64,000 nt of DNA from Pyropia yezoensis. Taxonomy: Eukaryota > Rhodophyta > Bangiophyceae > Bangiales > Bangiaceae. This document shows positions 13,370 to 64,000 of this stretch, one piece after another. The stretch covers positions 13,817,777 through 13,881,776 of the forward strand of contig CM020619.1 of NCBI GenBank assembly GCA_009829735.1, given 5' to 3'. The first letter of the stretch is position 1, and every line of letters begins with the position of its first letter. The position numbers were made by a program, and so were the translations under genes. The notes beneath the pieces are model-generated. The model was not told the DNA's origin and made no database searches. It saw only the letters and a program-made list of their open reading frames with translations.

Positions 13370-13374
13370 CCGGA

Positions 13375-18074: not shown

Positions 18075-18101
18075 CTCGGTGACTCCATAGTTCTTCTCGG
18101 C

Positions 18102-22280: not shown

Positions 22281-22282
22281 AA

Positions 22283-46094: not shown

Positions 46095-46928
46095 GGTTCC
46101 GACGGTTCCAGCTCCGATGGCGGTCAGCAGTGCTTGAGGGCTTTTAAGCGCGCGGGGAGTTGAAGGCGAGCCCCCTTTTGCAGCTGCATCCCGCTACCCA
46201 GAAATCTGAAGGAGCGGCCACGCAGTGCTTTCTCCCGCTTGGATCGTGCCGGGGCCACGCCCTGCTCCGCCCATGTGCGTCGTAGTCATTGCTGTGGGCT
46301 TGACCTTCCGAGAACAGCGGTGTCCGCGGAGTTTCTTTTTGCACAGCGTCAGCAAAGAATCCAGAAAACTCTTTCCCGCGCTCTGACAAGGACCCTCTAG
46401 CGCTTACGGGACACCTACCTCGCAAGCGCTGCGGGGTTACGTGGGCCGGTCACGCAAGACGGCCCCAGGCGCACCGCTCAGAGTAGCCAAACCCATGTCC
46501 TGTACCAAGACTGTGGTGCCCCCACCCCCCACTCTCGCTGGCGTTACATACCACTGGGCGGCTGCTGATTGGTGGATTTCACAAGGCAAGGGCCGCAGCG
46601 CCCTGCCCTGCTGGCCGCCATTCGCAGCGCGGTTTCCGGATACAGTAGGGATAAATTGACAAGGTCAATATCCGGTGTGCGAGGCACGGGGGTGATCCTT
46701 GCCTGTCCCATCAACTCCCCGTCTGAAATTTACTGTGTATGTACAGAACAATCGGTTAAACCCCTCCGGGAAACATCCGGCTCATCCTGGGAAAGGTCCC
46801 CGGGAAAAGCCGGCGTCTAACCTGCTAGTGAACGGCCGACAATTACCCATAATTGGCTCGTCGGCGAAAAAGGGGGCGGCTGACGCACCCCGTGGTAGGT
46901 GAGGGTCACGGGCAAGATGTGCGCTGTC
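46095..46928. other. Region between the lipase promoter and the Fanzor 3' end
   Basis: No protein gene. On the minus strand the last 490 bases (46928-46440) are the immediate 3' flank of the Fanzor ORF, the place where guide (omega) RNA is usually encoded in this family. It is less GC-extreme than its surroundings and has several short inverted repeats (for example around GATAAATTGACAAGGTCAA at 46649). Confidence 0.4.
46835..46865 (-). other. Stem-loop just 3' of the Fanzor ORF
   Basis: GCCGAC (46835-46840) pairs with GTCGGC (46860-46865), and AATTA pairs with TAATT around a CCCA loop, with a 5-base bulge. It begins 64 bases beyond the stop codon. It could be part of a guide RNA or a 3'-end signal. 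Confidence 0.4.
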
Positions 46929-49900
46929 TTAGCGTCTTGCAGTGTCCACCAGACCACGGGGCGCGTCTGTCGCCCCCGTCTCCGCCCGACGTACCCCGTC
47001 CATGGTACTGCCGGCCGCCGCCACCCGTTCCCCACCAGGAGCACCGCGTCGCGTCGTACAGGACGCCGCCGTCGCGTCGCCGTCGACAACCTCCCTACCG
47101 CCACCACCACCACCACCACCACCGCCACCACCACCACCACCGTCGCCGACAGTGTCCACTGCAGCCAGTACGGGCCATACATCGACCCGCGTGATCGCAC
47201 GGGTGCAACGTACAGGCGGGACGGGAACACCACTTGGAGGACGCTTGGTCGTCCAGGCCCACCTCATATCAAACGGGCGCTTGAAAGGCCACACGTTGGT
47301 ACCCGTAAGACGACGAGCGGCCACCCACGCCATGTTGCGGGCCGCAACGTCGTCCCGATTGCGAATGACGGGCGGGTGTGGCGCTGGGTGACCGGGTCCT
47401 TGCGGGGCCGCGAGACAGCACGTGTAGCAGCCCTTGGCCACCCACTCGCTCAGCCGCCTCGGGTCGGCATAGACGGCGCGGTCCTCGACGGCACAGGCGG
47501 CCAGCGCGGCCGCGCGCCGCGCCACAGCAGCAGCACGGGCAGTGGCTCGGACGGCCGCCCGGTAGGCGTCGGGGTCTGGCCCTCGGCGCGTCACGTGGGT
47601 AGCAGAGGGGAGGGCCCGCTTTGGCCGCCCCCGACGCGAACCCGCCGCCATCCGCACACGCCGTGTCGACGGCAGAGGGCCGGCCGGCGGCCCGTACAGC
47701 TGTCTTGGAATCTTGGGGGGGGAGTTGCCCGTCGAGTAGATGAGCACCATCTTGTCGTGACACTCGGAGCACGCCTTGCTGGTGTTGAACTCGTCCTGGT
47801 CGACAAACCAGCACAGCCGTCGGAGGTGGCGGCGGAGCCAGGCGTCCCCCCCGCGCACGCGCGCAGTGCCCATGGCCACGACGACCGCGCCGCCGCCACG
47901 GACCTGGCGAAGGAGGCCGCCGGTCAGGTCCTGCGCCACCGAGGCAGCAAAGCGGCCGCGTTGGATGGCCTTGCGCACACACGCCGCCCGCAGGTGTCGC
48001 GTGGCTTGGGCGCCAAATCGCTGGCCGTACGCGGCCGTGTCGCGACGGGCGGCCCACTCGAGCGTTGCCTGCAGGTGCTTGCCGCCGTCGCCGGTACGCA
48101 TCGTTCCGTGTGCTGCTGCCACGTCGACGGGTGGTGTGTGGCCAGCGACGCCGCCTCCCTCACCCGCCGCCGCCACCAGTCCCGCCACCGGTCCCGCCTC
48201 AGTACCGCTGCGTGCCCGCCACTGCTTCCACGCACGGGCCAAAAAGTTACCGCCGCTGGCCTCGCGAAAGTGGGCGGCTCTCAGGCTGTAGCGAAGGCCG
48301 GGGACGGGTGCCTGTCGACGACACCCCTTGCGCCGGGGCAGCGCGTCCACCCGGTCCTGCAGCGGCGCGTCTGAGGTGGTGCCGCTGGCACTGTCGCCCG
48401 CCGCGGCAGTGGGGTCCACCAGCCACCGTGCCACCTTTTCCGCCTCGTGACGGGGCACAGTCCACCGGGACAGGCGCGTGCGACGCAGCACACGCCGCAC
48501 CGAGGTGGCGAGCTGGGTGCGGCGGGCCCGTCGGATGGACGCCTGCGGCCCACGCCGCACGCGCCCATGGCCACCGCCGGGGCTCGCCGTCTGGTAGGTC
48601 TTTGCCTCGGGGGGCGTCGTCGCACCCGCCGCCGCCGGGGCCACCGCCGCCGCATCATCGTCGCTCCCGTCGGGTGACGACCGCCGCGCTTGTCGCTTGG
48701 AACGGCTCCCCCCTGTCCCCGCCCCTGCAGCCGGGGCGCCCGCCGCCGCCCGCTTCCTAGACCCCCCCGGTGGGTGGCCGTCGGGCACGGTTGCGGCTGC
48801 CGCCACCCCGTCTTGGACGCCCGCCCCACGCAGGAGCGCCACGGCCGCCCGGTTGAGCGCGTCCAAGCCCATGTGGCGGGACCACGCGGCGCGCATCGCG
48901 TCTACAACGGGGCGGGCGGGGAGGTCTGCCGTCGCCACGCGCTCACCCGGTGCTGCCGACAGCACGGCAGACCGCCCCGGGTCTCCCCCGACCATCTGGA
49001 GCCACCGGACGCGCGCCAACGGCAGGCCAGCCCGCTCGAGCTGCGTCAGTACCCCCGCCCGGGACGCAAAGCCTTTGCCGCCGCGGTCCCGCGCACGTCC
49101 ACCGCCGTCCAGCTTCTTGGCCCAGGCCACCGCCCGCGCCTCGGCCTCTGCGGCCGTGTCGGGTCGAGACAGAAAAAACGTTACCGCCACGCCGTCGATA
49201 GACAGCTGGGAGGCGGCCCGGTTGGCGCGGCCACCGACACCAGCCATGGCGGCCAGCACCGCTGCACCGCCCGTTCGCAGCTCTGGCCATGCCCGAAGAC
49301 TGGGGTGGCCACGCACCCCCACGCCAGTGGCGGCCGAAACTGCCCGCAACAGGGCGAGCATCTTGTCCGGCACCAGCGTGCCGTGACCGTGGAGCACCGC
49401 TCGGGCGCCAGGGATGAGGGCGTACGGGCTCCCCACACCCACATTCAGGACGTGGAGGAGAAACGGCACGTACGCCCACCAGCGGCGCTTCTTCACAGGC
49501 GTTGCTGGAAAGAGGCCCGCCACAGAGGGTGGCATGGCCGCCCGCATGACGGCCACCCGTTGCGCCAGCGCCTGGACCAGGTGCTGGGGGACGCCGTCGA
49601 GGCCCCGCCGGCCCGGCGTTGCCTTGTACGCGGTACCCGCACGGAAGCGCGCGGCCGCCCACCGCGTCAGCCGCCGCTCCGTGTCCCAGGCAGAGCCGCC
49701 CGCTGGAGCAGCCGTGGCAGCGGGGGAGGTGGCCAGCGCGTCCTTGGCCGCCTTGGCGCCCAGCTTGCGACACGCCGCGTCCACACACCGCCCGGCGTGG
49801 GTGGCCACGATGGTGGCGACGGGCTCCCATCGTGCCGTGTTGTTGCTCGCCGGAAGATACCGGTCGCACGCAGCTGCCGTGACGGCCATCATCTGCGTCA

Positions 49901-51104
49901 GGGCGTAGGAGAGCGCCTCTGCCAGCAGCGGGTGGCTCGTCGTCACCACAGAGCGGGCGCGCGCCATCCGCGTGTTGGTCCGCCCCTTGCCACACCCCGC
50001 ACACACGGTGCCCGCCTGCAGGGGACTGCCAGACACACCCTCGCAGCCGCAGGCATAGGCCAACCACAGCCAGACGGGCGCCCAGTTTGCGGGCACGGCC
50101 CCCGCCCAGTCGGCGTCGTCGGCGGCTGCGTCCGCGACGGTCGACACCAGGCGGCGCAATGCCACGTCGAGGACGCGGAGCATGAGGAAGCGGAGCTTGG
50201 TAGCCGCCCCAGAGAGGTCCTCCAGCTCTGCTTGCAGCGCCGTCTCTACCGCCGCGCGCGTGTCGGCGTCGTCCTTGTCGTCCCCAAACACCGCCCTCGC
50301 GAGGACGCCCACCGGCACGGTACACGCCCGCGTCTGCCGTCCCGTGCTCTGAAGCGGGTCCTTGCAGTCGGGGTCGACGCCGCGGTCGCAGGCCGCTGAC
50401 ACACCCCCACAGTGCCGCTGCACCGGGCAGGCGGCGTCCCCGCTGCTGTGGCCCCCTCCCAGGCAGTCGCGACACTTGGACGCGGCCGCCGCCGCCGCCG
50501 CCGGGACGGCGGCGGCAGCGGCGGCGGCAGCTGCTGACGCCGGCCCTGCACCAGCCGGGGCCTTGCAAGAGGTGACCTTGTGCCCCGGCTCGCCACATCC
50601 GCCACACTTTTGCGTCCGCCCCTTGCGGGCGGGCTGTGCGTCAGTGGCAGCCTCGCGCCGGGGCAAGCCCGCGGCGACCACGCCAATCAGACCAGCGGCC
50701 GTCTGGGCGCGTGCGGCGAGCTCCACCTCGGCCTCGCTTGCCGCCGCCCGACCACCACAGTACACGCTGACCGCCTGTGCCGCGCCTGTGATGGCCGCGA
50801 CGAGGTCCTCGCCGGCGCCGTCGAGGGGGCCCGCCGCCTCCTCATCCTTGGCCGCCTGCTGCACCTGCGCGACGGCGGCAGACCAGCCGGCCGACGAGGC
50901 CGCGTCGCCCCCTGGCGGTGCAGACACGCCCTGCAGGCGGCTCAGGTTGGCGGCGAGCACCGCCCGCTTGAGCGTCACCACGTTGCGTGCGTCTTGAACG
51001 TACGCCTGCTCTTGTACCGGGTCCCACTCCTCGTCCGAGGTGGCGTCGCCGTCCAGCTCGTCGACGCCAATGTCTTGGTCGCTGCCGTCGTCATCATCGT
51101 TCAT
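46929..51104 (-). CDS. Fanzor-type RNA-guided RuvC nuclease (eukaryotic TnpB relative), very large
   Basis: About 1391 residues from the ATG at 51104; the frame stays open 265 codons further up (to 51899), but that part is low complexity. Fanzors are eukaryotic OMEGA nucleases descended from transposon TnpB. Signs of the family: SIDGVAVTFFLSRP before the nuclease; RuvC-I MVGGDPGRSAVLS with Asp708; VVVAMGTARVRG where TnpB has its RuvC-II Glu; DEFNTSKACSEC with Glu1105 and zinc Cys1112/1115; CYTCC with Cys1226/1229; and RuvC-III NRDDVAARN with Asp1251. The DEF-x-TSK block and the missing RuvC-II Glu fit the rearranged Fanzor site. Unusual are an acidic N-terminus, two zinc knuckles (C167-C170-H175-C180 and C211-C214-H219-C226), a further CxC/CxxC cluster near 350-375, and a length about twice normal. 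The C-terminus has a poly-Gly tail. The frame is uninterrupted. The only weak point is that identification is by motif, not search. Confidence 0.85.
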   Translation of the reverse strand: MNDDDDGSDQDIGVDELDGDATSDEEWDPVQEQAYVQDARNVVTLKRAVLAANLSRLQGVSAPPGGDAASSAGWSAAVAQVQQAAKDEEAAGPLDGAGEDLVAAITGAAQAVSVYCGGRAAASEAEVELAARAQTAAGLIGVVAAGLPRREAATDAQPARKGRTQKCGGCGEPGHKVTSCKAPAGAGPASAAAAAAAAAVPAAAAAAASKCRDCLGGGHSSGDAACPVQRHCGGVSAACDRGVDPDCKDPLQSTGRQTRACTVPVGVLARAVFGDDKDDADTRAAVETALQAELEDLSGAATKLRFLMLRVLDVALRRLVSTVADAAADDADWAGAVPANWAPVWLWLAYACGCEGVSGSPLQAGTVCAGCGKGRTNTRMARARSVVTTSHPLLAEALSYALTQMMAVTAAACDRYLPASNNTARWEPVATIVATHAGRCVDAACRKLGAKAAKDALATSPAATAAPAGGSAWDTERRLTRWAAARFRAGTAYKATPGRRGLDGVPQHLVQALAQRVAVMRAAMPPSVAGLFPATPVKKRRWWAYVPFLLHVLNVGVGSPYALIPGARAVLHGHGTLVPDKMLALLRAVSAATGVGVRGHPSLRAWPELRTGGAAVLAAMAGVGGRANRAASQLSIDGVAVTFFLSRPDTAAEAEARAVAWAKKLDGGGRARDRGGKGFASRAGVLTQLERAGLPLARVRWLQMVGGDPGRSAVLSAAPGERVATADLPARPVVDAMRAAWSRHMGLDALNRAAVALLRGAGVQDGVAAAATVPDGHPPGGSRKRAAAGAPAAGAGTGGSRSKRQARRSSPDGSDDDAAAVAPAAAGATTPPEAKTYQTASPGGGHGRVRRGPQASIRRARRTQLATSVRRVLRRTRLSRWTVPRHEAEKVARWLVDPTAAAGDSASGTTSDAPLQDRVDALPRRKGCRRQAPVPGLRYSLRAAHFREASGGNFLARAWKQWRARSGTEAGPVAGLVAAAGEGGGVAGHTPPVDVAAAHGTMRTGDGGKHLQATLEWAARRDTAAYGQRFGAQATRHLRAACVRKAIQRGRFAASVAQDLTGGLLRQVRGGGAVVVAMGTARVRGGDAWLRRHLRRLCWFVDQDEFNTSKACSECHDKMVLIYSTGNSPPKIPRQLYGPPAGPLPSTRRVRMAAGSRRGRPKRALPSATHVTRRGPDPDAYRAAVRATARAAAVARRAAALAACAVEDRAVYADPRRLSEWVAKGCYTCCLAAPQGPGHPAPHPPVIRNRDDVAARNMAWVAARRLTGTNVWPFKRPFDMRWAWTTKRPPSGVPVPPVRCTRAITRVDVWPVLAAVDTVGDGGGGGGGGGGGGGGGREVVDGDATAASCTTRRGAPGGERVAAAGSTMDGVRRAETGATDAPRGLVDTARR

Positions 51105-51117
51105 CGTGAATCCGGGG

Positions 51118-51148
<31 letters not shown>

Positions 51149-52780
51149 CGGAGGAGCGGGTTGTGTGTGTGGGAACTACTGTGAGGAGGGTGGGTGGGAG
51201 GGATTGTCGACGGTGGCTGACGGGGTTGGCAAAGATGAGGAACCTCGGGGCACCACCTACCGCCCTATTTATCGTCTGGAAAGGCACCATCCGGGCCGGG
51301 GTCCTCACTCGATGCCGTACGCATGCTGTAGACGCTGGCGATGGGCTGCATGGGCCGTCAGGCGGCCGGCAGTCCAGGTCCTCCCAACCCCCCCCCCCTC
51401 CCCCCTCCTCTCCCCCCCGCCGCCCGCCCCCCGCCACCCCCCAACCGACGCAACCTCTCGGGCAGGGGGCAGAGCGGAGGATGCTCGCACCGCCACGTGC
51501 CCCTGTGGGCTGTCGCGTGGCCTTGGCTCGCCGCCCCGGAAATGAAAGGTCCTTCTCATCTCTGCGGCACCCGTGACCGACGGTGGCTGCCGTGAGAGTG
51601 TCCTGTGGCGCGGCGGCGGTGGTGGCGGAGGGGCTCGCGGTGGCGGTGGCGGTGGTGGGGCTGGCGGTGGTGGTGTGGCGGCGGCGGCGGTGGTGGTGAT
51701 GGGTTGGCGGCCCAATTGCAGACCGCGCACAGACGCTGTGCTCATGGCAGCCGCCAGTAGCACGACGGTGGGTGCGGGACGGAGTGCACCGCATGCACTG
51801 CGGCATTTGAGCCGACTGACACGCCAGCATCCGTGCGGCTCGCCCAACCATGGCGAGCGAGCGCCCCCCCCCCCCCCCCTCCCCCCCTCCCGACGGCACG
51901 TATTGGGAGAGTGACTGCCACCGTGCTGCGGGGCAATAACAACACTACAATTAAACCCACCCTCGGCACTGCCTGCTCGCCACGGTGCATGTGGAGCGGC
52001 GTGCCGGGACGCGGGCACCCAGCCTTTTGGTGCTTCCGGTAGGCCCCGTCCGTTTGCAATGCACTACGAGCACCGTTTGGGAAAAATGTCATCCTGGACG
52101 TCTTGTTGGGGGGGGGGGTGCAGTCGTGTAATGCAAACCCACCGCCACAGACGGCATTGCCATGCTGCGAGCTCACCGCGCGGTGCCTCCAAATGGCCTG
52201 TCACCAGCACACGACACCGCGCGGGCCGCGTGGACCTGCGGCTCTCGTCAGACCCGGGGGGCGCCGAGGGAAGCGACTGACCGGACCTGCCTGTGGCTGA
52301 ACGTGCGGCCGACGGATGAGAGCACCCATCCCCGGACACCCACGTCACCGTCCAATTCAACATCATCTCGTGCCGCCGCCCAAATCCCCTCCCCTCCCGT
52401 TTGATCCGCGTCGGTGTCAGCCGGTGGTCGGGGATCTCAGATATCGAAATTCAATTCGCCCCCCCTCCCCCGCCCGTCGCCCTCTCTTTATGGTTTACCC
52501 CCCCACCATGACGCAATCGGAAGACACTAATTCACGCGCCCACACAAAAGAACAACTATGTGACCCCCCAGCTCGTTTCGTTATGCACCAAACGCGAGAC
52601 GTCAGCTCTGGCGAACAATGTCTACAAAGATCCGAAGAGCGTTACGTACAGTCGGTACCCAATATTATCCCAATATTATCCGTACTGCGAAAAACGAGAT
52701 CCGTACGGATCGATTTGACAACAGGCCACCCATCAAATCAAGGCCCTGGGCTGGACAATACCTCGTGCTAGCACCCCCAG
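51105..52780. other. Fanzor 5' flank
   Basis: A run of 30 G (51119-51148) means the Fanzor leader carries poly-C ending 14 bases before its ATG. More C runs follow at 51395-51430 and 51866-51890. Near 52655-52680 the word CCAATATTATC is doubled, and ATCCGTACGGAT at 52700 is a palindrome. No gene is seen. Confidence 0.4.
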
Positions 52781-53442
52781 CGTAGCGGGTCTTAAACCGT
52801 GTATCTTATTTTTCCGTGCCGGCACGTGCGCGCACTGTCAAATGCCTGTTTGCAGGCCCCGCGGTCCCGGGCGTCGCCGCTTCTGCAAAGCCGTAAAATG
52901 TCACATTGTCAGCGGTGCACGCCTTGGCATCATGTAAAACGCTGCAGGGCATGCACAATTTGAAGTGCGGCCCTGGTCGCGCAAAACACCGTGCCTGCAG
53001 CAACATTCACAAACACGTGAATGCCGTGCCCGTCGCATGCATTGCAATGCGCGGTCACGTGAGAAAGCCTGCACAGCAGTGCAGCAGTGCAGCACCAGCG
53101 ACTGACACCATTCGGGCACGTCATGAAACGTGGATAATGCTGCATAGACACGTACTCTCGGGTCACGGTCGCCTTGTTGTGCGCCCCGCGGCACGCCCCT
53201 CTGGCGAGACGCACACAGGCCGTGGGAATGTAGGCCTTGCCGTCCTGATGACGGTCGTCGAGGAGAAAAAAAAAAAAAAAAAAAAAGAGTAGGAAGCACG
53301 GTCACAACGCGGCCGTGTGCGCTCTAGCACGCGGAAATCGGGCTTTACGGGGCCCCCCCTGGGCGCCCCCCTGCAATCCACTGCCCGCCTGTTTGGGCCA
53401 GATGCACGGAAAATAAGATACACGGTTTTAGATCCGCTGCGC
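52781..53442. mobile_element. Non-autonomous TIR element (MITE-like)
   Basis: The 40-bp left end (52781-52820) starts GCGTAGCGGGTCTTAAACCG and is repeated inverted at 53404-53442 with about five differences (GCGCAGCGGATCTAAAACCG). The right end overlaps the stop codon of the adjacent Tc1-like fragment. The interior (about 580 bp) has a poly-A tract (53265-53286) and no transposase. A TA may flank it (52770-52771, and in GGCTATC at 53446-53452), as for Tc1/mariner relatives. A related end occurs at 62810. Confidence 0.75.
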
Positions 53443-54006
53443 AGCGGCTATCACACCCCCCACACGACAGGGCATCGACTCCACGAGAGACTTGAAAAAC
53501 AAAGCAGGAATGGCGTCCCACCCGTCGCGCAGAGCCATCCAGCCGCGGTGCGCTGTGGCCCACACAAGGCGCTTGGCGACGTTCTTGGCAGACAGGAAGG
53601 GTTTCTTGGCCGCTTCCCCCTGGAGTGAAAACCCAAGCTCCAGACGGCCCTGCGGACAGCGGAGACGGACACTGGTCCCTTCTCGGGCCCTCTGGTCGCT
53701 TGGGTGGGTGCGCGTGTTATTCACCATCTCCTTCAGGGATGCCACAGAGGAAAACCCGTCGGTGTCAAGCGCCTGCCTGAGGTTACAGAGCTCACGGTCC
53801 GTCAAAACCTTGGGGCGACCCCGCTTGTCCACCCTGGCGCGGGCGGACTCTGTGCGGATGGCCCATAGCTGCGCAGGCGATGGTGCTCTTGGAGCGCCCC
53901 AAATCCGTACCGATGGCCCGGAAGGACCTCTGGTGTTGGAGGAGGCCAGTGATGATGACCCCGCGCGCTCACCGTCGGACAGAGAGCGACGCGATGAGCC
54001 CGCCAT
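53428..54006 (-). pseudogene. Tc1/mariner-like transposase lacking its catalytic core
   Basis: 192 open codons. The N-terminal part has helix-turn-helix features and a GRP linker (VDKRGRPKVLTDREL), then LSAKNVAKRLVWATAHRGW, the usual block just before the DDE domain of Tc1 transposases. The next residues are already the very C-terminal block, WDAIPALFFKSLVESMPCRV, followed by GGVIAAA. The roughly 150 residues that hold the D-D-E triad are missing with no loss of frame. It is either an internally deleted transposase or a truncated DNA-binding derivative. Its stop codon lies in the TIR of the neighbouring element. Confidence 0.75.
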
Positions 54007-54277
54007 CGTGCCTGCCGACCACGGCGGAGTCCTGGGCGCTGAGCTGTGGGCTCACATACACGGACGGTGCTGTGGCACTTGGGCGCGACCTTGCCATATG
54101 AGCCTTTGTCCAACTGGTCACGCAACTCAAAACATCAACGACAGCAGTTGGGAACAACACTGGGGAACAACCGACAACCACATGAAATGCGACACCTTCA
54201 AAGCATAAAAAGGAGGGGGTGCCGTACAGCCCCCCCCCCCCCCACTTTCCCCCCCCAGAAACAAAAGATACTCCCGA

Positions 54278-57200
54278 CTAGTACACCCTGTCGGGAGCCA
54301 CAATGTTGATGTGCTCGCGGTCCCGTCGATCTGGACGGCTCCACCTACGGCGGACATTGTCCCACCAGCTCTTCCACACACCCCCAGAGCTTGAAAGGAA
54401 GTCCATGTCACCAATCACGTGGAGATGGCTCTGTGCCCGCGACATCATGACGTTCACGCGCCGCTCGTCGGACAAAAAGTCGGTGTTCCCGCCGGGTGGC
54501 GCCCCAGGCTCTGACCGCACGAGGGAGAGTATGACACAATCCACAGAAGCGCCTTGACAGCCATCCACGGTGGACACCCTGACGTCGGCACATGGTCTGC
54601 GGGGCAGCCGCCTGCTGTCTCTCACCGACTGCACCACTTCCTTCAGCTTGTTCCGCTGCGCAGTGTACGGGGTGATGAGCATCACCTTGAGCTCGGTAGC
54701 CCCGCTGGACGTCGCCCACGCCAGCAGTAGATCCGTAAGAGCCATCTCGACCAACCGAAGCTCTGCAACGTTCATCAGGCTCTTGTTGTTGGAGGTGGTG
54801 GAACCCGACTTGTGCGCCCGATCGTTGGCCGGCAGGCGGGAAGTGTCTGTCACTTGCAGCCCTCCAAAGCGAATACGCCGACTCGGATGGTTTAGCCACG
54901 CGGGTGTTCCAAACCCCTCCTCATGGCGGGCCTTGGGCCCGCGCCCGTCCGACCATATGCCAATGTGCCGGTAAAAGACTTGTCGGAGGAGGGACCATAA
55001 CAGCGGCCGCATGCGGTACTGCACGGAGAGGATGACGCAAGCGGACAGAAACCGGGCGATTCGCTCAAAAACGCTGGATGCCATCGGCCGTGTCTCGCCC
55101 CTGTACTCCATGCCGGCGCTCGGCCTCAGCTGGGCATTGTCGCCAACAAGGACAATGCACTTGGTCCGCTCTGCCGGATGACCGTCCTCTTCTTTATCTG
55201 ACGAGCCACCCGCACGCCCTGCCCGCTTGGCGCGAACAATGGCGGCGACAGACGCAGGGACGCTTGTTGCCGCACCCTCGTCAATGATAATGGCGTCGAA
55301 GCCTTAAGCCCCCACGAGCGCCCCCGTCGACGTTGACGTCGTTGTGACAATGACGGACGCGCCGCCCACGATGCGCTTGCGGAGCTCCCGTTCCGCACGC
55401 TGCTGGCGACGCAAGGCAGCCTCCAGGGCTTGCTCCGCAACGGCACATTCCTCGAGGAGGTTTTGTGACCCACCCGCGCCCGGCTCTGCACCCTGGGCGC
55501 GGGAACGATCATCCACACGGCGGCCCACATCGGCCACCCGTGCCCTTGCCCGTTCCACCGCGTCTGTCACGGACGGGTAGGCGACGGGGAGGCGCTCGTC
55601 CACCACGGCGTCAATGTGCGTTGTCTTGGCACGGTGGCCATCCGGAGGGGGCTCACCCACACGGAGGAGCGTCACGGCATCGGGTTTCGCGACGCCGTGT
55701 GGACTGGCAGCCCCCGACGGACAGAACAACTCGTGCACTGCGTCCAACAGCTCGTCGCACGCCGTGTTGGTGCGCGACGTCAACAGCACCCGCCCGTCTT
55801 GCAGGGTCCCAAGGACCATGTCCACCATGGAGACAATGGCGCGTGTCTTGCCCGTCCCGGGGGGGCCCGTCACCAGCTGCACGTCACACTCGTCCGACAA
55901 CAGCCCCCGGCGCATGCAATCGACTGCGCGCCACTGGAACTCGTCCAGGTGGGCGTAGTGTGGAGGAGCACTCTGCAGGGGGGGAGGCCCTGGTGCCGGT
56001 ACAGGTACCACCTGCTGTCCCCCGTGCGGAGGCGTTGCGTGGATGGCGAGCGCCCTCTGCATGACTGGCGGAAGAAGGTCCCAGTGGCCGAGGCCGCCAA
56101 ACTCGCGGCTGTCCGACAGGACACTATGAGACAGGGTGACGACCACATTCGCCGTCCGGCGATGGAGCATCCGCCGCACATCTGAACGACGCACCGCAAA
56201 CCACCACCGCCGGGGGGGACTGGATGCGCCACCGTGGCGCGCCGTGCCGGCGTCATTGTCCTGCTCGTCCAGCCCCGGGCCAGGCGTCTTGTCCATCCAC
56301 CACTGGCCTGCCCCCGCGGGCGGTGGGCCACCAACCCCCCCGCCGGGCTTCCCCTCCTTGTCCTCGCAGCGGCCAATAAACACGGCGTCCACGGGGGTGC
56401 TGCACACCGAGCCGACGGGTTCCGGTACCCAAAAGGCACACAAATCACCCGGGGTGGCGTCTGTGGGGTCCACTTGACACTCTCCCCCGCGGTCCTTGTG
56501 GCGGCGGTGGTGGCGGCCGCCCCCACCGGGGGGACCACCCCGGGGGGCGGGCATACGCACGAGCACGTTGCACATACGACACGCCCGCGTGTCGTCCAAG
56601 ATGGACCCCCCCACCTGCGGCGACGACAGGGTTATGGCCGCGTCGATGCGAGCCACGCCAAAGCGGGAGCACAATGACGATGTGGTCACGCGCCCACTGC
56701 GTCCGCCGCCGCCGCCATGGCCCTTGTTGCTCCCTTCGGTAGACTGCTCCACCTCATCAGTACCGCGGGCGGCTAGCTGACACACGGTGGCGACAACGAT
56801 GGCCTGCCAGCGGCCCCCAGGTCCTCTTGCGTACAACGGGGACGGGCGCAGGTGGGTTGGGACACCTGTCCACCCCGACTCGGACGTACAGAGCGTCAAC
56901 TGACCGAGCGCCACCCGGTCACCATCCGCGCCACACAGTGTGGGAGGACTGGCCTGGCTGGCACCACCCCCCGCCGCCGCCGCCGCCGCCGCCGCCGCGG
57001 GCAGAGGTGCTGCAGTGGGAGACGCGTCCCCCCCACCACCCGGAAAACCGATACAAGGACCTCCCACGCCGGCAGTCCCACCTCCAACAACTGCCGCCTC
57101 CGCGTCTGCAACTGCAGGCAAAGCGGGAGAGGGCTCCTCCCCCCGAGCCACTGCCGTGCCTACCGCAGCCACCCCCCGCCGTGTCAGTTGCTGCAGCAGT

Positions 57201-57301
57201 ACCAGGTTCAGCAGGTGCACCTCCGCCAACACCCGCGTCGGCCACGGCCGCCGTGCCCGCAGGAGCCCCACCAACGCCAGGAGCACCCACAGCCACAGCA
57301 T
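54278..57301 (-). pseudogene. Superfamily 1 helicase (UPF1/DNA2-like), one in-frame stop
   Basis: A helicase frame of 1008 codons interrupted by a single TAA at 55304-55306. Before the stop: the Q-motif-like LDEFQWRAVDCMRRGLL, Walker A LVTGPPGTGKTRAIVSM, motif Ia LLTSRTNTACDELLDAV, and VIVTTTSTSTGALVGA. After it, in the same frame: GFDAIIIDEGAATS (Walker B), VGDNAQLRPSAG (motif III), VQYRMRP (motif IV), a motif V block (DGCQGASVDCVILSLVRS) and RRVNVMMSRAQSHLHVIGD (motif VI). These are the SF1 UPF1-like motifs. All seven survive, so the gene is recently broken or the stop is read through. The N-terminal region has Cys pairs (CRMC) and Gly/Ala tracts. The stop could come from CAA by one C-to-T change. 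Confidence 0.85.
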
Positions 57302-58993
57302 CCACCGCGCCTGTGGCTATACCCGCCGCCGATGGAGCATCGGAAGCAGCAGCAGCAGCGGTAACAGCAACCTCGGGTGTAGAGGGCCCGCCTGGGACGG
57401 CTGCCGTCGCGGAGGAGGTGCCAGCTACAGTCGCGACAGAGGTGGCAGCCACTGCCACACGGGGGGCCGCCCCAGTGGCGGAGGACGTACGCCGCTGCCC
57501 GACCAGTTGGCCGGCCCGGACCACCCGGGCCACACTGACGACAGTCACATCATCGTTCTCTGCGTCATGCCAGTCATCGTCGTCGTCAACAAACAAAATG
57601 ATGCTAGGGGGTTCCGCATCATACGCAGGGGAAACGGCCTGCGCAGCCAAAACATTGTCTGGGACCGCCACCGCGGGCAGGTAGCACACAAACTGGACTT
57701 CGTCCCCCGTGTCGTCGCCAATGGTTATGCCGTCGGGGTCACCGTCACCGGACGGAATCGCCATGGTCGCATCGGGCGCTGGGGGAGGCCGCCCATCTTT
57801 GTCGGCACCTGACCCGGCACCTACCTCATCGGCAGGTGCAGCAGCCCCCGCCCCAGCGTCGTCTGGCGCAGCACCCGCCCCAGTGTCGTCTGGCGCAGCA
57901 GACCCGCCGAGTAATTCGTCGATACGCTGACGAAGTTCTTCGACCAGGGGGCTGACCCGCTTGCCAGGCTTGGCAGGCGGACAGAGCAAACTCCTCAGCT
58001 TGTGCAGGGCCTGGGAGGTATTCTCCCCATCTCGTCCGATCCAGGGCGACATACCCGAGGGGGACGCCAACCAGGCAATCGCTGCGTTGGCCAGCGCCCT
58101 CCGAGATGCTCGCACACCAGACGCAAGCGGTATACTCCCCAGGTTGTAAATGGCCGCATAGTACACCCAGCTGTATCGCGACCGCGCCGCCTTGTCGTGC
58201 TCGACGGCAACCTCCCAAAGGCTCGGCAGCGAGTCATCCCACTCGTTGACAACGGGGGCGATGTGTCCCGCGTCCAAGATGTCAAAATGGGTGGAGCACC
58301 CAGCGGGATCGGCGAATCGGGCGAGGCACCCGACGAGCGCGAAGAGGATGACACTCCGTGCTTGCGACACGTCTCGGTGGATGCCCAGCCGCATGAGCAG
58401 GTGCAGGACACGGGCGAGCGCCCCACCCTCTGACATTTTGTCCGAATCGCCTTGAGAGCCCACAGCCGCAGCCGGGGGTTGCCCCGCGCTCACGTCCGTC
58501 AGCACCTGTCGGCCGCCCCGCACAAACGCCGTACTTACGGCAAACAGCTGCAGGGGGATGCCGTTCCAGTGACGAGCCGCGCGAGCAGTGCGCGCACTAA
58601 CATCCAGCAAGTGCAGGGCGTTTTGGATGACGCGCAGGGCGTCAAAAGGTCGCGGGCCACCACAAAGCGGACCCGGGGCGGCAGCGCTGGTGGTCTCGCA
58701 GGCGGAGTCACCGCGCCCCCCCCCGTCGGGCAGGACGGGTGAGCACCCATCCAACAGGTCCATGACGGACCACGAATCAGACCGACCGCCCCCCGCTCAC
58801 CCACACCACCGGCTAGGCGACGGATGACGTCCCGGGCGGACAGTCGGAACTTTGAGCTGGGCGCCACCAGCCACCCGACGCCAGTGTCCGAGGCAGTGAC
58901 GCTCGCAAAACGTGAAAACAGGGCCGCAGCCGGGGCGGCAGCAGGAGCAGCGCCCGGGTGTCCCAGAACGGTTGGGAAGAGCAAAGCCGCCAT
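56919..58993 (-). pseudogene. Middle part of the helicase locus, unrecognised helical region
   Basis: The frame resumes at 58993 (MAALLFPTVLGHPG, ASVTASDTGVGWLVAPSSKF), 18 bases below the stop at 59012 and in the same register. It then slips -1 near 58770 into MDLLDGCSPVLPDGG and on through helical stretches (ALRVIQNALHLLDVSARTAR, RVLHLLMRLGIHRDVSQARS, SRYSWVYYAAIYNLGSIPLA) and Ala/Val/Thr-rich sequence. The helicase frame returns by a +1 slip around 57000-57300. I recognise no domain. The two slips cancel, which suggests compensating indels in what was one protein. Two introns near the slips would be the alternative. Confidence 0.5.
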
Positions 58994-59011
58994 GTCACAT
59001 ATGGCCGTTCT

Positions 59012-61126
59012 TCACGCCTTGACTTCTTTAAAAGCATCGAAGAAGTCCGTCGGCAACATTGCCAGCGTCCCTGGCATGGACATCAGCAGGGCAACGTCCT
59101 CAGGGCTGCCCGCACCGGCCGGGACAGGCTCGTCGTCACCGCCACCCCGCTCCACGACGGCAGGTACGAAGGCCGACTCGACCAGATGCGACCACAGGCG
59201 GGTGTGCAGTTTTAACGGCTGCTGGGGCGCTCCAGTACCACCCTTGCCCGCCAGCACCGCCTGATGCACGGTGGCAGTGTCTGTCGCACATGCGTCGAGC
59301 AGGAAGCGCTGGGCCTCGGGTGGCCAGACGCCCATGGACCAGGCGGTACGGAAAAACCGCACTTGTTCCGGCCAGGAAGGAGAATCGACCAGCGGCCCGT
59401 GCTCGCGCAGCCATTTCGAGCAGACGGCGCCGACAGCAGCGACCATCTCGCGGCTGAAGTGGGCGAGCTCCTGGCCACCACCACTGCCAGCGTCCGCTAC
59501 AACATGCGCATCTTGCCGGGGAAGCGTCACCGGCGGCTCGTCCGCCCTAGGGTGTCGAAAATCCGCGCGGGGGGGGGTCAACGCCAATGAACGGGAAGAC
59601 GGCATCGCAGCCGGACCCGCAGGGCCCCCAGGACCGCCCAAGGCCGGGCCGGCAGGGCCACCAGGGGCGGTGAGACGCAGCCGCTTCCGCCCAGACCGGC
59701 CGGTCACCAGCATCTGTGTGGGCGCCGCCACCGCCGCCGCCCGCACCGCCAGGCGGTGGATCGTTGTTTTTGCCCGCCACACGTCAGGAACCATGACGGG
59801 GAGGACAAACATGTCCACGAGTGCCTCGAGGTTGTCGCGAGGCAGGTTTGCCAAACCCGGGCCGCGAAGGGCATGTCGAACGGCGGTTGCCATCTCTCGT
59901 GCCACGACCGGGTCGCCCGCGTGTGGCAGGTACACGTGGGACAGGTGGGCAACAGCGGCCTGGGCAACCTGCACACCTTGGTCCGTACGAAGAGGCGTCG
60001 ACGTGGCCTGGATCACGCACAGGGCGTCGGCCTGGGTCGTCTCCCGAGGGCCGACGCGAGCAAAGAGGGCGTCGCACTCATGCACCAGTCCGAGGGCACC
60101 CGTGTTGTGTGCCCGCCTGGCCACTGCAACCCCTGACTGGTCGGTGCCAACCGCCACAGCCGGCCCCGTTACCGCTGGCCCCACCTCAGGGCCTGTGAAG
60201 TCCAGCATCTCCACCACCGACTCGTCCGCCATGATGGGTGCACACCGGCCCATTCGCAACGGTACGATTTCGTCGTCGTCAACGGGCACCTCTTGCTGCC
60301 GCGCCAACGGCTCAGTTGCAGACGCGGCCATCGTCCCGGGCACCGCGCCCGCCGACACGACAGACACCGCACCCGCTGGCGCGGCCGTCGCGGCCATCGT
60401 CCCGGGCACCGCGCCCGTCGACGTGCCCGACACCGCACCCGCACCCGCAGGCGCGGACGGCACCGCACCCGCTGGCGCGGCCGACGCGGCCATCGTCCTG
60501 GGCACCGCGCCCGCCGACACGAAGGGCACCGCGCCCGCCGACACGACGGGCACCGCACCCGCTGGCGCGGCCGACGCGGCCATCTTCCCGGGCGCCGCGC
60601 CCACCGACACGACGGGCACCGCGCCCGCCGACACGACGGGCTCCGCACCCGCTGGCGCGGCCGACGCGGCCATCGTCCCGGGCACCGCGCCCGCCGACAC
60701 GACGGGCACCGCGACCGCCACCGCGTCCGCCGCCACCGTCCACTTGCCCGCCGACGCCGCCGCCGTCGACGTGCCCGACACCGCGACGGCCGGCTCAGCC
60801 GGCGAGACCGCCGACGCCTCGGCCGACGCCGCCCTTGACATGCCCGCCGACGCGGGCGGCGGCTCGGCCGGAGCCGCCGGAGCCACGACCGTCGGCACTG
60901 CACCCGCCACATCCACCGGCCCGGTCACCGGGTCAGCCACCTCCGACGCCGACGCGGCGGGCACGACCACCGGCGACGCGACCGATTCCGCTGCCGACAC
61001 GGCCGCCGGGCCAGCCACTGGCTCAGCCGCCGGTGGTGTGACCGCCATCGCCGCCAGCGGCCCCACCGACCTCGTTGCCGCCCCCCACCTGCGGGCTGTG
61101 CCGCCAGACGCACCAGCGGCTGCCAC
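59012..61126 (-). CDS. Repeat-rich N-terminal part of the helicase locus, unrecognised
   Basis: 704 codons from the Met at 61126 to a stop at 59012. The first 300 are Ala/Val/Pro/Ser-rich with about six 22-residue tandem repeats (AASAAPAGAVPVVSAGAVPG plus two residues). A globular region follows: DESVVEMLDFTGPEVGPAV, ECDALFARVGPRETTQADAL, VAHLSHVYLPHAGDPV, NLEALVDMFVLPVMVPDVW, and a C-terminal part ending MPGTLAMLPTDFFDAFKEVK. No family is recognised. It shares the reading register with the helicase 3.7 kb downstream. It may be an independent gene or the N-terminus of one large protein. Confidence 0.45.
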   Translation of the reverse strand: MAAAGASGGTARRWGAATRSVGPLAAMAVTPPAAEPVAGPAAVSAAESVASPVVVPAASASEVADPVTGPVDVAGAVPTVVAPAAPAEPPPASAGMSRAASAEASAVSPAEPAVAVSGTSTAAASAGKWTVAADAVAVAVPVVSAGAVPGTMAASAAPAGAEPVVSAGAVPVVSVGAAPGKMAASAAPAGAVPVVSAGAVPFVSAGAVPRTMAASAAPAGAVPSAPAGAGAVSGTSTGAVPGTMAATAAPAGAVSVVSAGAVPGTMAASATEPLARQQEVPVDDDEIVPLRMGRCAPIMADESVVEMLDFTGPEVGPAVTGPAVAVGTDQSGVAVARRAHNTGALGLVHECDALFARVGPRETTQADALCVIQATSTPLRTDQGVQVAQAAVAHLSHVYLPHAGDPVVAREMATAVRHALRGPGLANLPRDNLEALVDMFVLPVMVPDVWRAKTTIHRLAVRAAAVAAPTQMLVTGRSGRKRLRLTAPGGPAGPALGGPGGPAGPAAMPSSRSLALTPPRADFRHPRADEPPVTLPRQDAHVVADAGSGGGQELAHFSREMVAAVGAVCSKWLREHGPLVDSPSWPEQVRFFRTAWSMGVWPPEAQRFLLDACATDTATVHQAVLAGKGGTGAPQQPLKLHTRLWSHLVESAFVPAVVERGGGDDEPVPAGAGSPEDVALLMSMPGTLAMLPTDFFDAFKEVKA
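60319..60720 (-). repeat. 66-bp tandem repeat inside the helicase-locus ORF
   Basis: About six units of 66 bp (22 codons), some with an added half unit of 33 bp. The frame is kept in all units, as expected for a translated repeat. Confidence 0.8.
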
Positions 61127-61200
61127 CTCCCAACGTCTGGGCCACGACCGGTGGGGGAAGCGGGCGGGGGAAGGGGTGAATGAGGAGCGAGCGGAAGGAC

Positions 61201-61848
61201 CAGCGGCCGTGGGGTGGGGGCGCGGCTCGGGGGCGGCCCACCAGCAGCGGCGGCGGCGCGGTTTAAAGAAACCGCGCCGCCGGTGCTGGCGCGACCTGCC
61301 CCCCTCTCTGAACAGAGCCGCCGCGCCCGTGCCCCCCCCCGGCCGGCCGCCGATCCTCCACCGCCGCCCCTCTCACACTCTCCTCCCCTCCTCACACCCC
61401 CCCTCCTCACGCCCCCCCCACAACAAACGCACAGGTCCGGTCGCAACCCGCCGCCACACCACCCGCCGCCTTGGCCGCTGCCACCTGCGGGGGGGGGAGG
61501 GGGTGGGGAAAGGGGGTGGGGGGGAAGAGGGGAAAAAGGCACGGCAGAGAATCAGCGGCCGTGGGGTGGGGGCGCGGCTTGGGGGCGGCACACCAGCAGC
61601 GGCGGCGGCGCGGTTTAAAGAAACTGCGCCGCCGGTGCTGGCGCGACCTGCCCCCCTCTCCCAACAGAGCCGCCGCGCCCGTGCTCCCCCCCGGCCGGCC
61701 GCCGATCCTCCACCGCCGCCCTTCCCACACTCTCCCCCCCTCCTCACGCCCCCCCCCTCCTCACCCCCCCCTCTCCGTCCACAACAAACGCACAGGTCCG
61801 GTCGCAACCCGCCGCCACACCACCCGCCGCCTTGGCCGTCACCGGCTG

Positions 61849-61850
<2 letters not shown>
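61201..61850. repeat. 352-bp tandem duplication with an internal hairpin
   Basis: The copies start at 61201 and 61553 (CAGCGGCCGTGGGGTGGGGG). Each holds a hairpin with 13-bp arms, GGCGGCGCGGTTT and its complement around AAAG (61252-61281; second copy 61604-61633 with one mismatch). Just after both copies the DNA is C-rich, then contains CAACAAACGCACAGGTCCGG. It lies upstream of the minus-strand ORF that starts at 61126. Confidence 0.85.
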
Positions 61851-61881
<31 letters not shown>

Positions 61882-62022
61882 TGGGGGAAGGGAGGGGGCG
61901 CGGCACACCGTGGGGAGGGTGGTCGGGAATGGGGGAGAGGGCGCGGCACAACCGGGAAAGGGAGGGGTGTGGGAAGGGAAGGGGCGCGGCACACCGGGGA
62001 GAGGGCGGTGGGGGGTGGGCGC
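61851..62022. repeat. Poly-G run and G-rich repeats
   Basis: About 30 G with almost no interruption at 61850-61880, followed by GGGGAGAGGGCGCGGCACACC-like words repeated three to four times to 62005. Confidence 0.7.
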
Positions 62023-62157
62023 CGCGCGTGCACGCATGCGCGCGCGCATGCCCGAGGATACACGCGCACGGTCCGCGCGCACGCATGAGCGAGGGCGCGG
62101 GCGGGCGCTCGCGCGCATGCGCGCATGCATTCGCGCGCGCACGTCCGCGAGACGTGC
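62023..62157. repeat. Alternating purine-pyrimidine tract (Z-DNA-prone)
   Basis: Rich in GCGCGCGCATGC and CACGCATGCGCGCG words with strict purine-pyrimidine alternation over several stretches of 12-24 bp. No coding content. Confidence 0.7.
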
Positions 62158-62317
62158 GCCCCGGGAAGCGACGACTTTTGGTCCGACGATTTTTGTCCTG
62201 CGTATTACACACTGGCAGTTTGCGGAAAAGCCACAAGATTTTTCAGCACATCCCTTAGCGGTCGTCGCCCCCAAGATCTACGTGCCGGGAAAGGTCCCTC
62301 ATTATGTACAGAGTGAG

Positions 62318-62402
62318 GGGCGGTTCATTAGGAGGGGCGATTAATTAGGATGGGCGGTTCATTAGGAGGGGCGATTAATTAGGATGGGCGATTCATTAGG
62401 AG
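62318..62402 (+). repeat. 17-bp satellite, five units in alternating pairs
   Basis: Units alternate GGGCGGTTCATTAGGAG and GGGCGATTAATTAGGAT, giving a 34-bp dimer. A degenerate sixth unit runs into a poly-G tract at 62417-62434. Confidence 0.85.
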
Positions 62403-62635
62403 GGGGCGGTTCCTTTAGGGGGGGGGGGGGGGGGAAGGGTTCGTGGCACGGGTGTGAGCTGTGGGCCCACAAATGGAGAATCGTTCGTAAGATCGACAGA
62501 CGGCTGAATCGTAGAGCAAACCCCGTGTCCGCGGACATCTGAAAAAGCGCGCAGTTTGTGTAACCCCTACTCCAATCGATCAATGGACTGGGAAACGCGG
62601 TGTATCCGGTATTATGCATATAGACCGCCGTCGGT

Positions 62636-62806
62636 CGTCACAGGAAGTGACAATAAGACTACTCGCCGGACAAGCCTGCAGAATCAAAACCTCATAGACT
62701 ACCGGATTTTCGTCCTGGCGTAGACCACCGGACACATGCCGGGACACACCCGTGGCTATTTAGCATGGAATATATCGCTTTGTTCTGATTCGCATTTCCT
62801 GTGACG
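62636..62806. repeat. Short inverted-repeat element
   Basis: CGTCACAGGAAGTG at 62636 pairs with CATTTCCTGTGACG at 62793-62806 (one mismatch). The 171 bp between is AT-richer than its surroundings. It may be a small MITE. Confidence 0.45.
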
Positions 62807-62810
62807 GCCG

Positions 62811-62850
62811 TGCGCAGTGGGTCTAAAACCGAGTACCTACATTTCCGTCC
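62811..62850 (+). repeat. TIR-like end related to the element at 52.8-53.4 kb
   Basis: GCGCAGTGGGTCTAAAACCG continues CTACATTTCCGTCC, about 80% like the ends at 52781 and 53442. It is oriented as a left end, so the element would extend to the right past the window. Confidence 0.55.
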
Positions 62851-63002
62851 AAGACGGCCCTCAGGGGGTCGTGAGGGCCTGCTTATAGAAGCCGACTCCC
62901 CCACAGAGGCCGTAAAGGCCATGCAACTGGCAAACGTTGCCTGGACGCGCCGTTTGCCGGTGTGTGGTCGTCGGCGGCGGCGGCGGGCCCTGCTACGCAG
63001 AC

Positions 63003-64000
63003 ATGCCTCGGCGCGCTGGGCGCCGCGTCTCGGCCGCCAAGGCCCGGCTGGCCGTCGCGCGTGATGTGCAACCAGATGTACTCCGCACTGTCTTTGACGT
63101 TGCTGATGAAGCCGTGGCGTCTTTTCGGCGCCTGGCACTCGAGGCCCATGGTCTGGCGCACGACGGCAGCGGGGCAGGTCCGGCGAGGACCCGACGTAAA
63201 GTCGAGCTGAGGAACCCGGGACGGTTCGAACTTTCGACGGCTGTCAAGGACGCAGTGCTAGACTTTCTGCGGCGCGCGGCTTCCCGGGCGTCTACGACAC
63301 GCGGAAAGCTTGCGCCATCAGATTCGGCCAAGGGCGCAGGCGAGAGGGCCACCGACGCCGAGGCGGCTGCATCGGGCGGCGCATCGGACGTGGGATCGCG
63401 TGCGGTGCCGGCACAGCTGCCCCCGCGCTCTGTCGCCGTCGATGACGAGGAGGAGGGGGAGGCAGGTGGGGCGGGCGCCGCACGCGACGACGCACCCCTT
63501 GCTAGGAACCCGCAAGTAATGACGCGCATCGGGTTTTTCCTGCCGGAAAAAGAGGCTGGCAGTGCCCCCGAAGGGGATGACCCCGCAGGCAGAGTGACAA
63601 AGAGTCAACCCCTTCGTCGCAGACGCTTGGGCGCGCGTCGTGGGGCGATGGAGGACCTCAACCGCCGGGTGGCAGAGGAAGCCGCAAAGGTGCAGCACCT
63701 GCTGCTCGTGACCAACAACTTGGCGGCACTGCTGCGTACTGACGTGCCCAACGTGGCGTCCACTGGCGGACCATCCACGGAGGTAGGTCCCGTGCGCGTG
63801 TCCCTGGAGTCCGACCCCACCACACCCGTCATCACCCAGGCGCTCAGCACGTTGGCCGGCATGTCTGAGAAGCTTCTCACATCGCAAAAAAGTCCGCAGA
63901 CGGTGTCTGACCAGTTGGCACAGGAGACGCGCCGGAACGAGGAGCTCCACGATTCATTCGCCCGTGTGTGCGCTGCACGGCAGCGGGACGACGACTACGA
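63003..64000 (+). CDS. Unrecognised ORF, open at the window end
   Basis: I checked the frame codon by codon: 332 codons from the ATG at 63003 with no stop before the window edge. The N-terminus is basic (MPRRAGRRVSAAKARLAVAR). Then come a helical stretch (VLRTVFDVADEAVASFRRLA), a VELRNPGRFELSTAVKDAVL segment, an acidic DDEEEGEAGG patch, the segment QVMTRIGFFLPEKE, a basic RRRRLGARRG and a helical, coiled-coil-like MEDLNRRVAEEAAKVQHLLL. I see no known domain. It lies 150 bp inside a TIR-like end, so it may be a transposon-encoded accessory protein rather than a cellular gene. Confidence 0.5.
   Translation, partial: MPRRAGRRVSAAKARLAVARDVQPDVLRTVFDVADEAVASFRRLALEAHGLAHDGSGAGPARTRRKVELRNPGRFELSTAVKDAVLDFLRRAASRASTTRGKLAPSDSAKGAGERATDAEAAASGGASDVGSRAVPAQLPPRSVAVDDEEEGEAGGAGAARDDAPLARNPQVMTRIGFFLPEKEAGSAPEGDDPAGRVTKSQPLRRRRLGARRGAMEDLNRRVAEEAAKVQHLLLVTNNLAALLRTDVPNVASTGGPSTEVGPVRVSLESDPTTPVITQALSTLAGMSEKLLTSQKSPQTVSDQLAQETRRNEELHDSFARVCAARQRDDDY

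Follow-up and report, generated by a model that had tools for sequence, protein, structure and literature searches.

A giant Fanzor1-like gene is the last gene at the right end of a large, young, multicopy mobile element in the red alga Pyropia yezoensis

The window analysed here is a 64,000-nucleotide stretch of the genome of the red alga Pyropia yezoensis (NCBI GenBank assembly GCA_009829735.1, contig CM020619.1, positions 13,817,777 to 13,881,776 of the forward strand). It contains a giant Fanzor-like gene and part of the mobile element of which this is the last gene. Fanzors are the eukaryotic counterparts of TnpB and Cas12. Translation of the open reading frames (ORFs) placed a frame of 1391 codons on the minus strand at 46929–51104, with its ATG at 51104 and its stop codon ending at 46929. 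The plus-strand translation of the same interval is interrupted by stops, and upstream of the ATG the frame stays open as far as 51899. An intact frame of about 1391 residues had been given at this position in a preliminary description, with no strand named, and was borne out. The gene possesses the following features:

46929..51104, minus strand: giant Fanzor1-like ORF, 1391 amino acids (ATG at 51104, intact frame, copies, selection, profile comparison, alignment)
50427..50606, minus strand: N-terminal stretch with two knuckle-like Cys/His motifs, residues 167–180 and 211–226 (motif reading)
49176..49199, minus strand: WED-like strand IDGVAVTF, residues 636–643, matching the Fanzor1 TDG motif (alignment)
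48981..48983, minus strand: putative RuvC-I Asp708 codon (DPG), aligned with the Asp of SpuFz1, PpFz1, GtFz1 and one viral Fanzor1; Asp in 20/20 copies
47790..47792, minus strand: Glu1105 codon (DEFNTS), the putative relocated RuvC-II Glu of Fanzor1 (alignment and 20/20 copies), equivalent to E536 in SPu-1-1p and E541 in the solved SpuFz1 (PMC3627910, PMC10432273)
47760..47771, minus strand: putative first zinc pair of the TNB finger, C1112-x2-C1115 (motif reading and alignment)
47418..47429, minus strand: putative second zinc pair, C1226/C1229 (CYTC, 1226–1229); C1226 is conserved, and C1229 is present in 20/20 copies, not throughout the wider family
47352..47354, minus strand: putative RuvC-III Asp1251 codon (NRD; alignment and 20/20 copies)

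Its relatives include P0003 (1347 amino acids, 59% identity) and P0004 (1408 amino acids, 33% identity over part), encoded on contigs of 5.2 and 9.2 kb respectively. The first of the knuckle-like motifs is not present in P0004, and Pfam zf-CCHC_6 matched the N-terminal Cys/His stretch at E 4.2 at most. The protein also contains low-complexity and Gly-rich stretches.

Most Fanzor1 proteins have 600–700 residues, one of them with an insertion of ~100 (PMC11423790), some reach ~800 (PMC10711439), and the size range of Fanzors as a whole is ~500–800 residues (PMC10711439, PMC11423790). The earlier estimate that this protein is about double the usual size is right relative to these figures. Against the 638 amino acids of SpuFz1, 707 residues (382 in SpuFz1) precede the first catalytic Asp, 397 (158) separate Asp from Glu, 146 (65) lie between Glu and the second Asp, and 140 (32) follow the last Asp. 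Since all four segments are larger, the extra size is drawn from every part of the protein; read from the sequence, the ~750 additional residues lie partly in an N-terminal extension that carries the Cys/His knuckles, partly in a long insert within RuvC, and otherwise in an enlarged zinc region and a tail at the C-terminus.

The relationship to Fanzor1 was investigated with profiles and alignments. The comparator, L035, is a typical Fanzor1 of 671 amino acids obtained from viral contigs with the Fanzor1 DNA motif, and it matches the solved PpFz1 (4.5e-35), SpuFz1 (2.8e-34) and GtFz1 (4.4e-23). A custom hidden Markov model (HMM) made from these four proteins was searched against nine giant-family proteins and 1809 decoys; ranks 1–4 were giant-family members, the best decoy stood fifth, and seven of the nine members fell within the top 8 rows. 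Comparison of the giant-family profile with the Fanzor1 profile using hhalign gave a score of 38.4, the match being located exactly at LRR...DEFNTSKACSEC; none of the 113 column-shuffled decoys exceeded 22.4, and reversal gave 19.2. In an unguided alignment of four giants and four Fanzor1s, the TDG strand, DPG, the Gly of VVVAMG, E1105, TS, CxxC, C1226, NRD and the next Asn all line up. The two groups have 24 columns in common, 14 of them invariant (decoy maxima 19 and 8 in 82 decoys; reversed, 10 and 5), and these include D708, E1105, D1251, G1079, T1108, S1109, C1112, C1115, C1226, N1249, R1250 and N1257.

Bao and Jurka described G500 and E536 of SPu-1-1p as extra residues extremely conserved in Fanzor1 (PMC3627910). 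By position count on the SpuFz1 chain they correspond to the Gly of VVVAMG and the relocated Glu, both of which are present in the window protein, as G1079 and E1105, and occupy identical columns in the four giants and four Fanzor1s. The metal-binding residues of SpuFz1 are D383, E541 and D606 (Saito et al., PMC10432273); in the unguided alignment the giant protein likewise has a RuvC triad D...E...D (D708, E1105, D1251) with the Glu moved beside the TS-CxxC block. In Fanzor1 the C4 zinc finger is followed by X(5,50)-RD, and the window protein has C1112, C1115, C1226 and C1229 with 20 residues to RD. Three of the four zinc columns of Fanzor1 are kept in the giant family; P0003 has no fourth Cys, and in P0004 and P0007 this Cys lies two residues later, which gives the C-x4-C spacing of SpuFz1, PpFz1 and GtFz1.

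The homology of the giant protein to Fanzor1, as a divergent relative, is supported by these comparisons. The preliminary description had called the protein a Fanzor from motifs in the order known for that family, and the identity is supported by the profile–profile score and the 24 common columns, Pfam alone giving E 1.4. As for the motifs, DPG (D708), DEFNTS (E1105), CxxC (1112/1115), CYTC (1226–1229) and NRD (D1251) are all present in that order, but the second Cys pair does not stand as a pair, C1226 alone being conserved in the wider family. A scan of 2.9 million viral contigs with the giant-family pattern recovered no relative of the giant Fanzor, a search of viral contigs for relatives of L035 recovered L035 itself alone, and the Fanzor1 DNA motif had no occurrence in the bacterial and archaeal genomes searched.

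A six-frame search of the P. yezoensis genome revealed at least 33 loci of the giant Fanzor gene, the window's own counted, the others being 90–96% identical to it; this count is a lower bound, the best 33 of 20,785 first-look candidates having been scored and two halves of one locus joined. Eleven of the 33 are full length (residue 1 or 2 to 1391) and stop-free, six are stop-free and extend to residue 1336 or further, and one is partial and stop-free. Twenty of the loci, taken with their flanks, were used for the comparisons of conservation, selection and right ends. All 20 copies retain D708, E1105, T1108, S1109, C1112, C1115, H1116, C1226, C1229, R1250, D1251 and N1257. The ratio of nonsynonymous (dN) to synonymous (dS) divergence, calculated over the 190 pairs with stop codons and gapped codons left out, has a median of 0.48 (range 0.28–0.97; median dN 0.021, median dS 0.044). 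It is lowest around RuvC-I (0.26, residues 700–760) and highest in the RuvC insert (0.71–0.79, residues 760–1000) and the C-terminal tail (0.72, residues 1300–1391). The giant Fanzor gene is under purifying selection and constitutes a young multicopy family in P. yezoensis; the suggestion of recent activity or selection, made previously for the one frame, proved correct and understated, with dozens of young copies and a dN/dS of 0.48.

The notion of the window's ORF as a lone intact survivor among wrecks was rejected, since dozens of young copies exist. The P. yezoensis protein entries found for the giant Fanzor are annotated as hypothetical and fall short of the ORF in length (P0002, 1108 amino acids; P0005, 612; P0006, 385; P0011, 574; and others). 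A further partial giant-Fanzor-like protein of this alga, P0013 (I4F81_002777), is 40–45% identical over part of its length, which points to a putative second giant-Fanzor-like family in the genome.

Downstream of the stop codon lies the right end of the element:

46747..46928, minus strand: element right end, non-coding, candidate omegaRNA scaffold with a sharp terminus at 46747 (common terminus in 20/20 copies; slow evolution; 96–100% identity)
46747..46866, minus strand: two predicted hairpins at the terminus (folding z -2.78)

The terminus, 182 nucleotides beyond the stop codon and with the sequence ...GGTTTAACCGATAGTT or a close variant, is common to all 20 copies, and beyond it there are 20 different, unrelated flanks. 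The right end reads GATAGTT, and its identity is 96–100% in every one of the 40 matches scored, that of the window among them (best 40 of 101 candidates). Mean pairwise divergence is 0.0169 in the 182-nucleotide right end, 0.0272 in the ORF and 0.0387 at third positions of the ORF, the right end evolving ~2.3 times slower than third codon positions. Its last 120 nucleotides fold as two hairpins (z -2.78, with 1 of 200 shuffles equally stable), and its first 102 give a folding z of -1.29. An Rfam search of 46000–52000 gave no match up to E 1. The position, conservation and folding of the right end are as would be expected of an omegaRNA scaffold, and a transposase-binding end would likewise be conserved; we infer that it is a putative omegaRNA scaffold whose guide would come from the flanking DNA.

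The genome has 57 exact occurrences of the right-end 16-mer and the reversed control has none; 28 of the 57 sites follow a listed Fanzor locus at no more than 9 kb downstream. When the 16-mer was sought in inverted orientation as a left end, no inverted pair 8–90 kb apart was present among the 57 sites. The 29 exact sites with no listed Fanzor copy nearby are either unscored copies or Fanzor-less derivatives resembling the ghost elements of SpuFz1.

Upstream of the Fanzor gene the repeated element and its cargo comprise:

46747..64000, minus strand: window part of the giant repeated element (repeat matches of successive pieces), which runs past the window to at least C2:13907500
54278..57301, minus strand: UPF1-like superfamily 1 helicase in two frames, 54278–55111 (AAA_12) and 55304–57301 (AAA_11), Pfam 5.6e-36 and 3.3e-15
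56919..61126, minus strand: two further long frames (56919–58763 and 59012–61126), no Pfam match up to E 1; the segment 57300–60300 is repeated in two subfamilies

Successive upstream pieces recur elsewhere in the genome, the best matches of each being 93–97% identical (one piece in shorter blocks), through 64000 and further. The leftmost repeat point reached, C2:13907500, is 42,977 bases from the right end, and the corresponding point in the C1 copy is 44,091 bases from it. The leftmost 6-kb piece recurs over at least 4.8 kb at 15 or more places, the window's included (best 40 of 117 candidates), which is fewer than the 33 Fanzor loci. Other insertions split many pieces of the element, and its full reach is established for some copies, not every copy. 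Carriage by a transposable element is indicated by the 33 loci, the common right terminus and the unrelated flanks; the mobile element is ~43 kb or more in length, and the giant Fanzor is its last gene, next to the right end. Neither the left end nor a target-site duplication of this element was found. A left terminus near L034:450 was not accepted because no more than two copies were compared and their flanks had no consistent target-site duplication.

Of the two helicase frames, 54278–55111 (the second half) matches UPF1 in the PDB at 4.3e-12, and 55304–57301 (the first half) has no PDB match up to E 0.001. By the 40 scored helicase matches, 26 of the 33 Fanzor loci have the segment upstream in the same orientation, no more than 25 kb away, and none has it in the opposite orientation. 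The element also contains on its opposite strand a frame for an Ulp1/C48 protease (L029 6345–8774, plus; PF02902, 2.1e-13). An N6/N4 DNA methylase is found in an open frame of 2.2–2.4 thousand codons (L030 422–7576, minus; L031 2276–8950, plus; 2.1e-8 and 6.4e-8), and a SET domain below the cut-off (0.001) in the methylase frame of L030 only. A ParB-like motif in L032 2883–5042 was seen by eye and is unconfirmed by Pfam or PDB; a second frame with such a motif by eye, in the opposite orientation, is L033 4766–5479 (plus), for which Pfam gave no match. Pfam recognised no transposase in its scan of the long frames, which covered neither the short frames nor the left end.

The segment 57300–60300 occurs as two subfamilies, 91–97% and 76–80% identical to the window, and the scored helicase segments (93–97%) and Fanzors (90–96%) are near-identical in both backgrounds. 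A subfamily was assigned to 17 of the 20 copies (9 and 8), L012, L020 and L026 being dropped and L013 and L014 being assigned from a segment ~15 kb away. The Fanzor genes are unseparated by subfamily (between 0.0276, within 0.0274, difference 0.0002; permutation P 0.28), and in 8 of the 17 copies the nearest Fanzor neighbours belong to the other subfamily. The Fanzor gene has therefore been exchanged or converted between element backgrounds, and this could be ordinary recombination. A doubtful alternative is that the putative giant Fanzor and the neighbouring helicase would act as an RNA-guided homing and gene-conversion engine, cutting related copies and having its own cassette copied into them, which would explain why the Fanzor genes are unseparated between subfamilies that are ~77% identical next door.

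The explanation that we favour, and regard as likely, is that the product of the gene is a divergent RuvC nuclease of Fanzor1 type and giant size, and that the gene stands last in a young multicopy element of ~43 kb or more; this nuclease would operate with a right-end omegaRNA, take its guide from the flank and cut DNA. Judged by its sequence, the encoded protein is probably a Fanzor-like, putatively RNA-guided DNA cutter. What was computed, namely the intact frame, the many young copies, the catalytic residues, the purifying selection, the constant right-end position and the slow evolution of the right end, argues for the explanation; the RNA, the guide, the cleavage and the benefit are what it would add. 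The 182-nucleotide right end would be transcribed as an omegaRNA with its scaffold ending at the terminus. The guide would be read from the flanking DNA of each copy, so each copy would be programmed against its own insertion site. The protein and the right-end RNA would then cut DNA matching that site, in empty sites or sister copies, and repair after cutting would restore the element following excision or copy it into the homologous site. In SpuFz1 there is a right-end RNA with a guide from the flank, and the system edits human cells (PMC10432273).

A number of results weigh against this explanation. At least one stop is present in 15 of the 33 loci. The Pfam TNB model reached E 1.4 with the whole protein, which is not significant and by itself was not used as evidence, and E 0.055 with a slice of it; among 13 relatives and slices TNB was the family matched most often, yet by 3 of the 13 only (best E 0.0049). 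An NCBIfam search of the giant protein gave no match, phmmer against the PDB gave nothing but Gly-rich linkers among the 60 matches listed, and word-based searches of 5.8 billion proteins yielded no protein named Fanzor. In the custom HMM search no single match was significant (best E 0.025), and two of the nine giant-family proteins, P0012 and P0016, were not among the matches listed. For the profile search suggested in the preliminary description, support came by a less direct route than a plain HMM match: profile–profile comparison with Fanzor1s exceeded all decoys, and single-sequence searches of the whole protein with Pfam TNB and NCBIfam gave no significant match. Fanzor1 has a bilobed fold with WED, REC, RuvC and TNB parts; AlphaFold2 models of the giant protein had a mean predicted local distance difference test score of 38.4 (residues 200–1310) and 36.0 (625–1300), too poor for fold comparison. 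From D708 to T1108 there are 399 residues, as against the published Fanzor1 spacing D-X(125,275)-[TS][TS]; order and residues are kept, and the insert enlarges the spacing. Because this spacing lies outside 125–275 and conservation within the family does not extend to the fourth zinc Cys, we call the protein a divergent giant branch of Fanzor1 and not a textbook member. At the right end, 3 of 66 equally long windows of the ORF show conservation as high as that of the 182 nucleotides, the fold of the whole 182 has a z of -1.69, and the sequence could be conserved as a transposase-binding end instead of as RNA.

Such a binding site would be central if the protein were a RuvC-fold nuclease of Fanzor descent that had lost RNA guidance and served as a protein-guided end-cutting factor or part of a transposase. 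The conservation of the right end suits this equally, Pfam recognised no transposase among the long frames given to it, and the Cys/His knuckles and long N-terminus may provide extra nucleic acid contacts. We nevertheless hold it unlikely: the catalytic columns of Fanzor1 and three of its four zinc columns are retained, the right-end position of the ORF matches that in RNA-guided relatives, and a transposase may simply have been missed in the short frames and left end outside the Pfam scan. Neither TnpB nor Fanzor is known to serve as the transposase of its element. Less probable still is an inert passenger whose frame persists through the youth of the copies and not through function. The mean difference between copies of 2.7%, the stops just mentioned and the low-complexity and Gly-rich stretches would fit such a passenger, but not the dN/dS of 0.48 with its minimum around RuvC-I, the catalytic residues of 20 out of 20 copies, or the retention of the same residues at similar length in P0003 and P0004.

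The least probable of the alternatives, in our view, is an endogenous DNA virus as carrier, with the Fanzor as a viral gene. Fanzors do occur in large DNA viruses (PMC3627910), and the large size, the many genes, the DNA methylase and the protease would agree with this, as would a sub-threshold match of one L033 frame to a virion RNA polymerase plug (E 0.048). On the other hand, the pattern scan of viral contigs contained no giant-Fanzor relative, capsid, packaging and DNA polymerase genes were not found among the frames given to Pfam, which cover part of the element, and giant multigene transposons with methylases have been described in algae (PMC12477816).

No description of the giant Fanzor family was found among the open-licence papers listed by the literature searches. 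EnSpm transposons have CACTA-type inverted ends; the P. yezoensis right end is GATAGTT and has no inverted 16-mer pair, and the long frames scanned with Pfam include no recognised transposase. Like the P. yezoensis element, the giant EnSpm, KDZ and Sola1 transposons of algae are large and carry DNA methylases, some with ParB-like plus N4/N6 methylase proteins (PMC12477816), the ParB-like motif in P. yezoensis being an unconfirmed reading by eye; PMC12477816 makes no mention of Fanzor (0 occurrences). SPu-1/SpuFz1 of Spizellomyces punctatus resembles the giant in its catalytic Asp, relocated Glu and Asp, Gly before Glu, TDG strand, CxxC with a third Cys, and NRD, and in being a multicopy element that carries a Fanzor gene (PMC10432273, PMC3627910). 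It differs in encoding 638 amino acids in a ~2.1-kb one-ORF element with terminal inverted repeats, as opposed to 1391 amino acids in ~43 kb or more with no inverted right-end 16-mer pair. PpFz1 of Parasitella parasitica has the same core columns and provides a precedent for a RuvC insertion, of ~100 amino acids (PMC11423790); in the giant Fanzor the Asp–Glu stretch has 397 residues (158 in SpuFz1) and the N- and C-terminal parts are longer. CMe-1A, from the red alga Cyanidioschyzon merolae, is again a red-algal Fanzor1, with ~150 copies; unlike the present element it is ~3 kb long with copies ~80% identical to the consensus, and it is set beside the P. yezoensis element by description, not sequence (PMC3627910).

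Elsewhere in the window, pieces of a Ty3/gypsy-type retrotransposon pol (reverse transcriptase, integrase and chromodomain, in separate frames) were noted on the minus strand at 11518–13570, 16239–18917 and 22648–23664. A 475-bp repeat in the same orientation, 97% identical, at 13374–13848 and 22282–22756 may represent pieces of long terminal repeats. A tRNase Z-like gene (1247–4129, plus) and a gene resembling a flavin adenine dinucleotide (FAD)-binding monooxygenase (30987–33698, plus) are likely host genes.

The size range of Fanzors is widened by this lineage of ~1350–1400 residues, whose young and nearly identical copies occur in a seaweed under cultivation. The giant Fanzor is an unusually large natural relative of programmable nucleases, and it supplies natural inserts and N-terminal modules for study. 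Placed at the right end of a giant cargo element, with a helicase and a DNA methylase for company, it allows a test of whether RNA-guided nucleases aid the persistence or mutual conversion of giant eukaryotic transposons.

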